From positions 1-36,170 of the forward strand of contig JAFRNH010000021.1 of the NCBI GenBank assembly GCA_017430235.1: 36,170 nt of DNA, written 5' to 3'. Shown in pieces: positions 21,061-26,691 of the stretch. The notes beneath the pieces were generated by a model that did no database searches, was not told where the DNA came from, and saw nothing but the letters and a program-made list of their open reading frames with translations. Numbering within the stretch: the stretch's first letter is position 1; every line of letters starts with the position of its first letter. The translations under genes were made by a program, and so were the position numbers. Origin of the DNA: Paludibacteraceae bacterium. GTDB lineage: Bacteria; Bacteroidota; Bacteroidia; Bacteroidales; Paludibacteraceae.

Positions 21061-22002
21061 TTATATTTTTGATTCATTTTTACCGCCCTTACCATGTTTA
21101 TTCCGAACTTTATTACTCAAAATAACATCAGTATTAGAGTCAAATGTTGAAACACCTTCCCTTTTTACTGCGTTCACACCACCATTGTGAGGAACGTTTT
21201 GATGGATGACGGTGGGGACTTTCATTAAGGTGCGACCATCCTCACTCTCATGCCAAGTTAGTTTGTTTTTTTTCATGTACTTTCGTACCTTCGATGGGGT
21301 ATATTTTTTAGGATCACCTTTTTTTTGCGAATACATTCTTTCTGCAACGAAAAAATTAAACGTTCTATCAGAAGAATATATATCCAATGTAATTGGTTCT
21401 CCATAAACATATTCACTAAGATCCACATTCAGATCAGGAGGGTTACCACCAAACGGAAATCCCTTAAATGGGTCTGGATCAGGGAGAGGGGCCTTTCCTT
21501 TTGCATTTCTATATTCATTAACATTCATTATAGCATTCTTCAAAATATCATTCCAACATTGTGTATTATCTTTTGGATAACCTGGGATAGCCTTCTCAGA
21601 AGTACCTGGCTTCCAGTAATAACAATCCTTACCTTTGCACCAAGTTCCATCATCCTCAGGTTTTGAGTTCTTATTTTTAGGAATCCATTCATATGTTCCA
21701 TCATCCTTCTCTTCCCATTTTCCTTCGCCTGGAGTTCTTGGTGCTGCTGATGCACTAACATTTAATGTTTTATCATCAGTTTTTTCGCTTCCATCTACGT
21801 AAAGTATGAAATCTCCATCTTTAACGCCAATTTTACTATAACTAACTCCTAATTCTTTTAATTTTTTGCACAATTCGTCCAGTCCGAATCCTAACGGAAG
21901 TCCCCCATTATCACCATAATACTTAATAATTATTGTTGACATCCGATTACATTCATATCCCCTTACTGATTTTAGTTTTGCTGCAGCATCAATTAATTCC
22001 AT
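21061..22002 (-). CDS. Polymorphic toxin, HNH/ENDO VII-type nuclease (WHE variant)
   Basis: The 313-residue protein has no signal peptide. The N-terminal ~110 residues are unfamiliar; a middle part is rich in W, K, D and G (GKWEEKDDGTYEWIPK, GTWCKGKDCYYWKPGTSEKA) with a proline-rich linker (APLPDPDPFKGFPFGG). The C-terminus carries LTWHESEDGRTLMKVPTVIH and PHNGG, with Trp250-His251, His267 and His272, like the WHH/LHH group of HNH/ENDO VII toxins that cut DNA in rival cells; here the second catalytic His is Glu252. It lies 6 nt after a PAAR-like spike protein and 15 nt before an immunity candidate, so delivery by a contractile (type VI or similar) system is likely. Secretion machinery itself is not in the window. 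An internal start at 21942 is also possible. Confidence 0.8.
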   Translation of the reverse strand: MELIDAAAKLKSVRGYECNRMSTIIIKYYGDNGGLPLGFGLDELCKKLKELGVSYSKIGVKDGDFILYVDGSEKTDDKTLNVSASAAPRTPGEGKWEEKDDGTYEWIPKNKNSKPEDDGTWCKGKDCYYWKPGTSEKAIPGYPKDNTQCWNDILKNAIMNVNEYRNAKGKAPLPDPDPFKGFPFGGNPPDLNVDLSEYVYGEPITLDIYSSDRTFNFFVAERMYSQKKGDPKKYTPSKVRKYMKKNKLTWHESEDGRTLMKVPTVIHQNVPHNGGVNAVKREGVSTFDSNTDVILSNKVRNKHGKGGKNESKI

Positions 22003-22008
22003 ACAATA

Positions 22009-22677
22009 TCAATTATTCAAATTAATATTTCTAGCGATTGCTTTTCCATCTCCTCCAACACGAGTTTGAACGGTTATGTTTTTCCCTTTTTTAGAAGGTA
22101 TTGTAAACGTCACCATGTCGCCTGGTACAGCACCTTCTGTTTCTGCTACCAACGTTACAATTCCATCTTCTGGCACTTCATCGACTTGACATCCGTTGGA
22201 ATCCCAAAACTCTAAGGTTTTGATGATTGGTGTGATGTCGTCCTCTGGTTCCTCTTCGTTCGTGGCCATGGGGTTCATGTCCGACTGATGGGTTGCCACA
22301 TTGGGCGCATTGACAGCAGGCATGGTGGGCACTGGTATCTGCCCTGTGGTTTGAAATGATATGCACATCGGACAACCTAATGCACAGGTTCCTTTACTGT
22401 TCTTGGTCAGCGGATTAGAAATTCGGTTGACATACATACCTGTATATACATTATCCCATTTCGTAATCATCGCCACACAGGGCTTGGGCATGTTAGGCAC
22501 CATGTTGCAAGTACCAAAAGCTGGCGATGGAAAGGCTGGTCCTAACGTCATACTCGTGGCGGCCAACTTGCCGTTGAAATAGACGTTCATATTGTCTAGG
22601 ATATTATTCAGCATGGACGGTGCCACACCGAATTGGCATGTTGCCATCGCTCCTTTTACTATAAATTCCTCTTCCAT
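22009..22677 (-). CDS. PAAR-like (DUF4280) spike-tip protein
   Basis: The 222-residue protein begins GAMATCQFGVAPSMLNN and continues with SMTLGPAFPSPAFGTCNMVP, TKWDNVYTGMYVNRISNPLT and CALGCPMCISFQTTGQ, the arrangement of DUF4280 PAAR-like proteins (several Cys, Pro- and Gly-rich turns). These sit on the tip of contractile injection spikes and carry effectors. After about residue 130 there is an acidic linker (NEEEPEDDITP) and an immunoglobulin-like domain (VTLVAETEGAVPGDMVTFTI). It is coupled to the upstream gene (2 nt apart) and the toxin downstream (6 nt). Confidence 0.85.
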   Translation of the reverse strand: MEEEFIVKGAMATCQFGVAPSMLNNILDNMNVYFNGKLAATSMTLGPAFPSPAFGTCNMVPNMPKPCVAMITKWDNVYTGMYVNRISNPLTKNSKGTCALGCPMCISFQTTGQIPVPTMPAVNAPNVATHQSDMNPMATNEEEPEDDITPIIKTLEFWDSNGCQVDEVPEDGIVTLVAETEGAVPGDMVTFTIPSKKGKNITVQTRVGGDGKAIARNINLNN

Positions 22678-23843: not shown

Positions 23844-25250
23844 ACGAGAAGTAGAATCATACTCTTCTCTGCGCATAAATTTCAAATTTAATTCATTATC
23901 TCTTCTAGATGTGGTGACATAATAATCAATAAGCGGCATGTATTTAAAATCGTATTTTGGCAAATCCGACACTTTTATCAATCCTGCTTCCAGATAGCGA
24001 AATAGAGAACAAATTCCAATACACTCTGGAACCCATGCAGTATCTCCCGTAGCAACATCAATAAAAATTTCAAGTCCATTTTGTATACTTGATGCAGTTT
24101 GTATAACGACTACCTTTTCTCCAAAGTTATCATACTTGAGTTCTACTGGCTCTTTTATAATGGCATTGCCTTTTGCATCCTCATATATCCAAGACGATAT
24201 TCCCTCTTTAATAACAAGTCTAAATCGATTCTGACCCAAAGCTATAGATTCCACCTCTTTTCCATCCAAGGTGTACAATTTTATTTTTTTTGCCGACTCT
24301 GGTATTTTTACGTCTAAATCTTTTTCTAATTCTTTTATTAGTGAAGTATCATTACCTGCACCTTCGTAGAAAACATATTTCCCATATACTGTTGGAACAC
24401 TATATAAGTTGTCTACTAAGACCTTTTTTTTATAAATAGAAGATGTTATAGGGTATACACAAAGTCCCACATCTCCTTCACGCCAGACACAATTAGTAAG
24501 CAACACTGTGCCGTCAACATATTCCATAATTGAGTTGTCGCTTATGAAAGGATAGACTTCTTTGAAATCTATGTCAACAATTCCATACTTATTGTTTTTT
24601 TTCATCACAAAGCACCCTTCTGTTGCTCGACACATTCTACTTTCATAGCTAGAACTATAAATAGAAGCTTCTTGAAAATTTTTTTTCTTCAATTCTTCTT
24701 CTCCAACATAATATTTCTTCCCCTTCTTAGTGAAAGAAAGTAATTTCCCTGAATTATAATTCACCACTGGCCAATCATTATCCATAGTAAAGAGAAGCTT
24801 CCCGAATTCAAAGCAATAGGTAATAGTCTTACCTGGCTCAGTTTCAATTTGCACAATATCTAACGATTTATATCCAGGAAATTTATTAATCCCCCTGAAA
24901 GGTTCTTGGGGGACTTGGAGAATTCTTTTCACTTTTCCTTCTGGCACCAATCGATTGCCCATGCTGTCGATAACACCCACCGACTCATCACACCATAATC
25001 CATTTCTGAAATATCTTCTTTTATAAGCTATATTTTCATATTGTAATGGAATAACCACATCGCCAGACTTATTGATGAATCCAGCCTTATTGTCTTTTAT
25101 TACAAGGGCTCTGTTTCCACTAAAGCTTCCCACATAATCATACCCCTTGATTTTCTCGTTCAAAGACTCTGTTTGTTCTTTTGTCAGTGAAGCCGATGAA
25201 ACCACGGACATTACTGATAGTGCGAATAATGTGATAATAAGTTTTTTCAT
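23829..25250 (-). CDS. Exported WG-repeat protein, probably truncated
   Basis: The 473-residue protein has a signal peptide (MKKLIITLFALSVMSVVSSA) and WG-like repeat units, seen as VIKDNKAGFINKSGDVVIPL, FVMKKNNKYGIVDIDFKEVY and a later IKEGISSWIYEDAKGNAIIK. WG repeats form beta-propeller or ribbon-like surface or periplasmic proteins; their partners are usually unknown. The coding frame ends TSRKNPL; the adjacent frame continues the homologous-looking sequence for about 45 residues, so a single-base shift at 23839-23843 is likely. One of the two promoter-hairpin elements (25328-25388) lies 77 nt before its ATG and points toward it. Confidence 0.8.
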   Translation of the reverse strand: MKKLIITLFALSVMSVVSSASLTKEQTESLNEKIKGYDYVGSFSGNRALVIKDNKAGFINKSGDVVIPLQYENIAYKRRYFRNGLWCDESVGVIDSMGNRLVPEGKVKRILQVPQEPFRGINKFPGYKSLDIVQIETEPGKTITYCFEFGKLLFTMDNDWPVVNYNSGKLLSFTKKGKKYYVGEEELKKKNFQEASIYSSSYESRMCRATEGCFVMKKNNKYGIVDIDFKEVYPFISDNSIMEYVDGTVLLTNCVWREGDVGLCVYPITSSIYKKKVLVDNLYSVPTVYGKYVFYEGAGNDTSLIKELEKDLDVKIPESAKKIKLYTLDGKEVESIALGQNRFRLVIKEGISSWIYEDAKGNAIIKEPVELKYDNFGEKVVVIQTASSIQNGLEIFIDVATGDTAWVPECIGICSLFRYLEAGLIKVSDLPKYDFKYMPLIDYYVTTSRRDNELNLKFMRREEYDSTSRKNPL

Positions 25251-25327
25251 ATACTATTTATATAGGTGGTGTCTATAATTTTTTTAGCAAAATTTCGAAA
25301 CCCAAATCTTATATTCTGTTCGTTATT

Positions 25328-25388
25328 AAAAACTCGAAGACCGCTCGGGTGCGCTGTGCAATGGGAAGCGTGAGCGGTCATATTGAGT
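25328..25388 (-). ncRNA. Candidate structured RNA, copy A
   Basis: 61 bases identical to 26368-26428 but for position 25358. Read on the minus strand: ACTC, five bases, GACCGCTC, 25 bases, GAGCGGTC, three bases, GAGT, then five T. Within the 25 bases CGCT pairs with AGCG around an 11-base loop. This gives a three-part hairpin ending in a terminator-like T-run. The copy lies between the abi stop and the WG-protein start. Existence of the RNA is inferred, not shown. Confidence 0.55.
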
Positions 25389-25389
25389 A

Positions 25390-25420
25390 TAAATTTATTG
25401 TTTTTTTTCGTTATAACAAA
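25390..25420 (-). promoter_or_regulatory. Promoter-like sequence of RNA copy A
   Basis: On the minus strand TTTG (25417-25420) and TAAATTTA (25390-25397) are 19 nt apart. The last base of the -7 box departs from TAnnTTTG, so it should be weaker than the promoter of copy B. Confidence 0.5.
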
Positions 25421-25431
25421 ATAAAAATTCT

Positions 25432-26349
25432 TCATTTCCATACAGGTAATGTTTCCCAATCAGGGGGAAATCCCATCTCTTTTAATGAAAGGAGACGATT
25501 AGGCTGATTGAGTAATTGAATCAGATTTGTCTTAAAAGAGTTATCGGGACTAATTATATCAACAATATACTTTATGGCAGAGAGCATTGCAAACAATTTG
25601 TTATTTCTAATTTTAGCAATCTTTTTGCGGGGGATAAATGCAGAGGTTGTATTGTATGGCAATTTGATTTGAACAAGAAATCGTCGATTCCATATTCTAC
25701 TATGATGAGCGCAACAATTTCGCAAATTGTTAAATGCGTGTAACCAATTGGCAAAGATCTTTTCATCACCGATACCAAACTGATTTGCAATACTACGTTT
25801 CTCCACACTTGGAATTAGTTCCTTATATAATCGGCTAAGTACACCAAAAGAAACGACTTCCAAAGTCATCCAAGAAGGAGGCATTAACGGAGTGTCGTAT
25901 TTTTGCCTATAATGTTTGATAAAATCTTCATCACTTCTATCAACATCAGACTTAATATCACTTATTATTTTCTGAAACTTGATAGGAGACTTATAGATAT
26001 TCTCGTTTTCATACCACAATGCGTCATTTTTAGAAAGAGAATAATAAAGCGAGAGTTTTGTACGTACCGCAACTTCTATTTTTTCAATCTCGCTGAATAC
26101 CAAGGAGCGTAATCGCTTATCAAACACATACAAATCAATAACATCCATGAAATCGATGTCATCCCTAACAAATTCATGATCGGCGTTATCCATGTTATTT
26201 TGAAACGGATACGTAAATGCACGTAGTCTATAATAACTTATGTTCTGTAAATATTTAGTAGACAAACTCTTATTACAGAAACGCAATCCTCGTTTCTCAA
26301 GCTTGGAAATTTGCTCTTCAACAGATAAAGGTAGTTTAGTGTATTGCAT
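25432..26349 (-). CDS. Abi_2 family (AbiD/AbiF) HEPN protein
   Basis: A 305-residue protein with the Abi_2 (PF07751) layout: LSVEEQISKLEKRGLRF near the start, YYRLRAFTYPF, then LYVFDKRLRSLVFSEIEKIE with VRTKLS, MPPSWMTLEVVSFGVLSRLY, and the conserved NNLRNCCAHHSRIWNR. Arg210 and His215 form an RX4H motif of HEPN ribonucleases. Family members include lactococcal abortive-infection proteins, which act after phage entry; cleavage of RNA is the likely activity, but this is inference for this copy. The ATG follows structured-RNA copy B by about 19 nt and the stop precedes the promoter of copy A. The gene is A+T-rich compared with ddh and gdhA next to it, as expected for an acquired defence gene. 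Confidence 0.88.
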   Translation of the reverse strand: MQYTKLPLSVEEQISKLEKRGLRFCNKSLSTKYLQNISYYRLRAFTYPFQNNMDNADHEFVRDDIDFMDVIDLYVFDKRLRSLVFSEIEKIEVAVRTKLSLYYSLSKNDALWYENENIYKSPIKFQKIISDIKSDVDRSDEDFIKHYRQKYDTPLMPPSWMTLEVVSFGVLSRLYKELIPSVEKRSIANQFGIGDEKIFANWLHAFNNLRNCCAHHSRIWNRRFLVQIKLPYNTTSAFIPRKKIAKIRNNKLFAMLSAIKYIVDIISPDNSFKTNLIQLLNQPNRLLSLKEMGFPPDWETLPVWK

Positions 26350-26367
26350 AAAACAAAATATAGATAG

Positions 26368-26428
26368 AAAAACTCGAAGACCGCTCGGGTGCGCTGTTCA
26401 ATGGGAAGCGTGAGCGGTCATATTGAGT
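26368..26428 (-). ncRNA. Candidate structured RNA, copy B, upstream of abi
   Basis: Same element as 25328-25388. The predicted RNA is about 55-60 nt, with outer stem ACTC/GAGT, main stem GACCGCTC/GAGCGGTC, inner stem CGCT/AGCG, an apical loop with CCCATTG, and a T5 tail. It starts right after a well-formed promoter and ends about 19 nt before the abi start, so it could be a terminated small RNA with partial read-through into abi. The single difference between copies falls in the loop, keeping the stems intact. Confidence 0.6.
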
Positions 26429-26429
26429 G

Positions 26430-26459
26430 CAAAGTTATTGCTTTTTTTTAATAAACAAA
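26430..26459 (-). promoter_or_regulatory. Promoter of RNA copy B and abi
   Basis: TTTG (26456-26459) and TAACTTTG (26430-26437) on the minus strand are 18 nt apart, a good Bacteroides promoter. Transcription would start at the 5' edge of the hairpin. Confidence 0.75.
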
Positions 26460-26691
26460 ATATTTATTCAAATTATTTGATATTTTTTCAGGAAAGGGAT
26501 TTTGTCTTTTAATCACAAAAATGAATTTAACCTCGATTTATGTCAGCAAGTAGCAAAAAACAGACTTAGAATTGGGGAAATTTCGATTTGAATGTTTTCA
26601 GAATCCTCGTTTTCCTTTATGAGCCATTAACATACACTTCTGCAATTCCCCATGTACAAATTAAGCTACTGTGTCGATGGAGCATAATAAA
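26460..26691. other. Intergenic region with no gene seen
   Basis: About 230 bases between the abi promoter and the ddh terminator. They are A+T-rich; I see no RNA gene, coding sequence or repeat. Confidence 0.4.

Follow-up and report, generated by a model that had tools for sequence, protein, structure and literature searches.

A divergent abiF-like RNA on both sides of an Abi_2 HEPN gene in a Paludibacteraceae genome: a probable toxin-antitoxin module with a second antitoxin gene

The window analysed here, meaning the whole 36,170-nucleotide (nt) contig JAFRNH010000021.1 of a Paludibacteraceae bacterium (assembly GCA_017430235.1, G000 in our genome comparisons), carries an abi_2/abiF gene that lies between two copies of a short RNA element, all three on the minus strand. 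The elements belong to direct repeats (25328-25408 and 26368-26448) that are 94% identical over 81 nt and start 1040 bp apart; a single base differs across their first ~60 nt and the likeness extends into the promoter region, in agreement with the original prediction of two near-identical elements around an Abi_2 gene on one strand. They are the only matches to the element in the whole genome assembly (2.71 Mb, 111 contigs, 88% complete). The locus contains the following features, R1 being the covariance model described below.

25328..25389, minus strand: RNA copy 2, 3' of the gene (sequence, R1 match; core kept in three genomes)
25390..25420, minus strand: copy 2 promoter region, with a TAAATTTA box that is one base off consensus here (three-genome comparison)
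25432..26349, minus strand: abi_2/abiF gene, a 305-residue HEPN toxin candidate (Pfam Abi_2, E 2.2e-56; PDB 8vz6, PbAbiF, E 4e-53)
25478..26449, minus strand: tract near-identical to genome G003 (4 mismatches), with copy 1 and most of the gene and without copy 2; its neighbourhood is more diverged
25702..25722, minus strand: HEPN motif R210-N-C-C-A-H215-H216 (R210, N211, H215 and H216 invariant in a 19-sequence alignment)
26368..26429, minus strand: RNA copy 1, upstream of the gene, with a T5 end 18 nt 5' of the start codon (sequence, folding, R1 match, covariation)
26430..26459, minus strand: copy 1 promoter region, with a TAACTTTG box and an upstream TTTG (sequence; box position fixed in 57 of 64 aligned copies)

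The structured RNA is real. Both copies fold more stably than shuffled sequence (z -3.4 and -3.9), and their structure is retained in relatives. R1 was built on an alignment of 15 rows, namely the two copies in the window, three found in two related genomes and ten RNAs taken from other relatives. Under filtering that costs weak matches, we searched 295 genomes of the order and 200 of the family with it, obtaining 40 matches in 34 of the order genomes and 46 in 33 of the family genomes, 83 of them distinct. Alignment A4 holds 64 matches, of which 62 are distinct and two are those of the window. It contains 86 cells in which both sides of a base pair have changed with the pair kept; shuffling leaves 31.8 such cells and sliding the partner 2-35. 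The RNA thus covaries strongly, as predicted; because RNAalifold run alone on A4 predicts only the inner stem, and the alignment was itself fitted to R1, this support rests on the named structure and its controls. Of the three nested stems first proposed, the middle and inner are well kept, but the outer ACTC/GAGT stem is formed in just 58% of cells. In 57 of 64 rows a TAnnTTTG box, the Bacteroidota -7 element, starts 19-21 nt 5' of a fixed stem position; the same holds for 5 of 366 control windows. Of the Bacteroides-type promoters first noted before each copy, that of copy 1 has an exact box (TAACTTTG, 26437-26430), and that of copy 2 has a box off by one base in the window (TAAATTTA, 25397-25390) and exact in two related genomes.

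The open reading frame between the RNAs is intact and matches Pfam Abi_2 at 191.5 bits (cut-off 25.6). Its RNxxxH HEPN motif comprises R210, N211 and H215, the first and last as originally read, and these residues are invariant, together with H216, among 19 aligned sequences that include the window protein. The sole solved structure retrieved by phmmer is PbAbiF, whose R210 and H215 align in register with those of the window protein. The PbAbiF R210/H215 double mutant is reported to be inactive, and RNase activity and toxicity are reported in AbiF relatives (PMC12373285). The window genome encodes another Abi_2 protein at C103:1461-2342 (L020), accompanied by a longer-looped RNA. At C17:21828-21864 (L178) it also has a solitary RNA of RF03085, the Rfam abiF model, with no toxin nearby.

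RNA and gene occur together in a fixed arrangement. Where an Abi_2 match covers more than 250 model columns on one open reading frame, which we call full-length-like (some have frameshifts), it begins 10 to 131 nt after the RNA match on the same strand in 42 of 42 cases, three downstream copies being left out, in keeping with the predicted co-occurrence of the element with Abi_2 genes. Outside these 42, the RNA at locus L032 lies 3' of the gene on the opposite strand, which argues for action in trans. Counted from the protein side, the 200 family genomes gave 78 Abi_2 rows, from which 13 below 120 bits were dropped; an upstream RNA of the R1 or RF03085 type accompanies 45 of the 65 used, and the searches with these two models found none at the other 20, two of which begin near a contig end; at another of the 20, the C103 gene of the window genome, R1 does match, though weakly (21.8 bits).

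The Rfam abiF model does not recognise the window RNA: RF03085 finds nothing in the window at its gathering threshold, nor even at E 10 over 25250-26600, and an Rfam E-value scan of the locus returns only weak matches, mostly to snoRNA families and far under their cut-offs. RF03085 does match at 11 loci of relatives (at one, L006, the RNA that it matches is an additional one lying farther upstream), and R1 recovers two RF03085 RNAs, at L012 and L034, that are both absent from its alignment; the RNA at L030 is matched by both models, but was an R1 row. Because RF03085 misses the window RNA yet matches RNAs of more distant relatives, we class the window RNA as abiF-like, a divergent sister of RF03085 and not a member. 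It is an abiF-like RNA in the broad sense of a covarying hairpin directly 5' of Abi_2 genes; the tandem antitoxin repeats that lie upstream of the toxin in type III systems are not seen here, single motifs being found on either side. Covariation, placement and the relatives' RNAs that match RF03085 together give good support for assigning the window RNA to the Abi_2 gene and to the abiF type of antitoxin.

Two characterised systems and the Rfam family offer points of comparison. AbiF-Cd/RCd22 of Clostridioides difficile prophages resembles the window in its Abi_2 HEPN protein with RNxxxH and in its structured RNA directly upstream with its own promoter and terminator; read-through co-transcription is reported there, and we infer it for the window (PMC12373285). 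RCd22 binds the toxin and neutralises it in cis and in trans, direct RNA-protein neutralisation as in type III toxin-antitoxin, but it consists of two abiF motifs in one upstream transcript, whereas the window has single-motif RNAs on either side that RF03085 does not see (PMC12373285). PbAbiF-AbiFr (8vz6) is likewise a Bacteroidota AbiF with R210/H215, and is reported to bind one RNA per monomer (PMC12373285, PMC12737573); the window protein stands at some distance from it (4e-53, versus 2.3e-141 for L013, same genus, with an RNA of the RF03085 type). RF03085 RNAs share with the window RNA the hairpin, the conserved inner helix and the place upstream of Abi_2 genes, but their loop is shorter than that of the window RNA (CUUCCCAU..GAACAGCG).

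We propose that the locus is probably an AbiF-kind toxin-antitoxin module with a divergent abiF RNA, in which copy 1 serves as antitoxin and as read-through control and copy 2 as a second antitoxin gene. Copy 1 would be transcribed from its own promoter and would mostly stop at its own terminator; the layout, with 18 nt from T5 to ATG, suggests that rare read-through past that terminator would yield the toxin mRNA, which the terminator would thus limit, as in AbiF-Cd and PbAbiF. Free RNA would bind the HEPN dimer and block its RNase, as in tested relatives. That the RNA restrains the nuclease is the likeliest of the two roles first suggested, since the tested AbiF-Cd/RCd22 pair works so; nothing favours its being sensed by the HEPN protein. 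Copy 2, unlinked to toxin read-through, would add antitoxin without toxin, and is probably what remains of a tandem module whose toxin was lost, selection then keeping its core.

Two RNAs around one gene are unusual, as had been supposed: among the 65 Abi_2 matches of the family genomes, five have RNA on both sides, at 3 loci. G000, G002 and G003 share one of these, beside DAPDH, and the others, with RF03085-type RNAs, are G408 C71 (RNA, toxin, RNA) and G429 C32 (RNA, toxin, RNA, 32-codon toxin remnant, RNA). The remnant and third RNA of G429 illustrate a route by which decay can reduce tandem modules to RNA-toxin-RNA; no toxin remnant was seen by eye after copy 2 of the window, so a tandem origin there rests on the other loci.

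Within the DAPDH locus the two copies appear to have different recent histories. G000 and G003 differ at 4 positions in 26449-25478 and at 8 in 25328-25432 (copy 2 and the rest, to the stop codon); identity is 89% on the DAPDH side, and the intergenic sequence 5' of copy 1 can scarcely be aligned. Since the tract is so much closer than the copy 2 side and the neighbourhood, copy 1 and most of the toxin gene were, on this comparison, recently exchanged between the two lineages, with copy 2 excluded. Neither R1 nor blastn finds a match beside DAPDH in 13 other genomes of the genus (~1.5 kb searched, in one only ~550 nt). The sequence after DAPDH in these genomes is unrelated to the window's, one stretch being short, so neither insertion nor loss can be read at this site, and we dropped the notion that they preserve an empty site. 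We also set aside a comparison of G408 with G446 as an exchange of RNA for module: the blocks are rearranged and duplicated, there is no clean empty site, and an assembly error is possible.

Copy 2 may instead be decaying, unexpressed duplication debris, with only copy 1 working, a possibility that we regard as doubtful. Its off-consensus box and one loop change in G000 would fit. So would the finding that an exact box is lacking in 9 of the 38 RNAs whose toxin is broken or missing, versus 3 of the 45 that have one (p 0.057). The core of copy 2 is nevertheless kept in three related species despite diverging flanks, and its box is exact in two of them: 2 of 58 core positions vary among G000, G002 and G003, versus 63 of 127 flank positions (Fisher 4e-11), a contrast that the 3' flank of G002 may inflate, its homology being doubtful because copy 2 is followed there by a DUF218 gene and in G000 and G003 by a WG-repeat gene. 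Between G000 and G003 only, the values are 2 of 58 and 19 of 127 (p 0.024). In G002 the toxin gene is apparently frameshifted and both RNAs are apparently intact. The likeness of the core might equally have been maintained by gene conversion between the two copies. That possibility, the doubtful flank, the inexact box and the missing remnant, along with RNAalifold's single stem, the model-fitted alignment, the 20 Abi_2 matches with no upstream RNA and the silence of RF03085, are what weighs against the module as we draw it.

Direct repeats in the same orientation around exactly one gene, and a recently exchanged tract with copy 1 and that gene, could suggest mobile-element ends or dispersed repeats that act in recombination rather than as RNA; given the covarying stems, the kept promoter box, the two copies only in the genome, an exchange tract that does not end in copy 2 and the lack of R1 or blastn matches beside DAPDH in the 13 genomes, we find this very improbable, and the copy number led us to reject a dispersed-repeat (REP) reading. 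Copy 2 is also very unlikely to be a leader that regulates its downstream gene: it ends 77 nt 5' of the WG-repeat gene in G000, and the G002 match ends 12 nt 5' of the first start codon of the DUF218 reading frame, but these downstream genes are unrelated, and the 200 nt 5' of five WG gene homologues contain no RNA of this kind. A Cas13-like role, with the RNA as a guide or sensor that switches the HEPN protein on, would suit a family described as ancestral to Cas13 (PMC12373285, PMC12737573). We give this little credence, as the RNA has a conserved loop and no variable spacer-like part, and in characterised relatives the RNA is an inhibitor (PMC12373285, PMC12737573).

Beyond the window, many of these RNAs stand without a complete toxin. 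Of the 83 matches, 45 lie beside a full-length-like toxin (three of them the downstream copies), 14 beside toxin pieces and 24 beside nothing recognised by hidden Markov model; five of these 24 have short Abi remnants directly after the RNA (L072, L073, L128, L139 and L147; tblastn E 2e-4 to 0.2, some weak), and another, L106, is at a contig end. Above 43 bits the corresponding numbers are 39, 13 and 16 (n=68), and lower-scoring matches may include false ones. The exact promoter box is present in 42 of 45 RNAs with a full-length toxin, 14 of 14 with pieces and 15 of 24 with none. Wide occurrence without Abi_2, which the original prediction held would count against the pairing, is thus partly what we see, in 38 of 83 matches and in most viral copies, but toxin pieces follow the RNA in 19 of those 38 (a few by weak matches), which suggests that the toxin-free RNAs are antitoxins separated from their toxins. 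In G372 a YoeB-type toxin gene follows the RNA where G388 has Abi_2. Around small genes including such a YoeB-type toxin, loci L148, L149 and L040 (G372, G388 and G034) have imperfect direct repeats of ~160 bp, like exchangeable cassettes. Elsewhere in the window, at 21061-22677, a WHH/Colicin-DNase type nuclease gene adjoins a DUF4280 gene and resembles an interbacterial toxin cluster.

Viral contigs extend this picture. Window-type core patterns occur at 23 loci in IMG/VR (12 + 11), partly non-independent (L189 resembles L200; L194, L195, L196, L198 and L199 are alike). Four have a toxin (in L191 cut by the stretch end) and 19 have none in the examined stretch, which for 15 of these reaches 900 nt or more downstream, the rest of the contigs not having been searched for toxins. 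In L194, L195, L196, L198 and L199 the RNA sits within a tRNA gene cluster or at the stretch end of one. Two window-type viral RNAs with neighbouring tRNA genes had no BLAST match among named phages. The RF03085-type core occurs at 120 viral loci or more; among the 120 listed, two have a toxin and one part of a toxin, and 117 have none, 100 with at least 900 nt downstream and 17 with less, again with the rest of the contigs unsearched. At least 5 base pairs can form in 79 of 105 distinct flank pairs among the listed viral matches, versus 14% with shuffled partners. Solo abiF-type RNAs in viral contigs are found among L194-L199, L209 and L212-L331. One viral contig has a permuted tmRNA gene with an RF03085 RNA a few nt 5' of it (L217:7820-8128).

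Named phages, T7-like and T4-like ones among them, carry such RNAs as well. Two BLAST searches returned 4 and 68 records, some weak. Of six phages examined further, five have an RF03085 RNA by Rfam: Acinetobacter phage Acj61, Aeromonas phage T7-Ah, Roseobacter phage CRP-143, Salicola phage CGphi29 and Mycobacterium phage Thibault. The sixth, Arthrobacter phage Mimi, does not reach the gathering score. Abi_2 was not found in the whole T7-Ah genome, nor in the examined stretches of Acj61, CRP-143, CGphi29, Thibault and Mimi. The RNA match overlaps a hypothetical open reading frame in some mycobacteriophage records. In T7-Ah the RNA comes after a CTATAGGGA element, present six times in the genome versus 0.12 expected, which resembles a phage RNA polymerase promoter. 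Phages with an AbiF-like protein are, by the first word of their names, those of Streptococcus, Clostridioides, Lactococcus, Listeria, Enterococcus, Erysipelothrix, Lactobacillus and Staphylococcus, or unnamed, and these host genera differ from those of the named solo-RNA phages.

The literature already records an abiF RNA for cyanophage S-CREM1, along with three phage genomes listed by Rfam (PMC9964418); some phages are reported to mimic antitoxin RNAs (PMC10651486). On toxin-less phage abiF RNAs we found nothing in the available literature beyond PMC9964418, PMC12373285 covering toxin-bearing prophages, and a search that left out most subscription papers found no proposal that phage abiF RNAs act against AbiF. 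The closest likeness is to Racrs, solitary phage CRISPR-repeat RNAs, each a defence RNA without its protein, as we propose for abiF RNAs; inhibition of CRISPR-Cas is shown for a Racr, whereas phage abiF copies are putative inhibitors of AbiF (PMC10651486). We put at about even the chances that abiF RNAs live as toxin-free antitoxin genes, in bacteria beside or after lost toxins and in phages, T7-like, T4-like and mycobacterial ones included, as decoys that would disarm host AbiF during infection.

These findings add to the known abiF antitoxin RNAs a divergent type not covered by Rfam, and show that such an RNA gene can outlast or outnumber its toxin. They also raise the question of phage-borne RNA inhibitors directed at a toxin family ancestral to Cas13. 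If the decoy reading is true, such RNAs would be for toxin-antitoxin systems what RNA anti-CRISPRs are for CRISPR-Cas, with the ancestor of Cas13 as their target.
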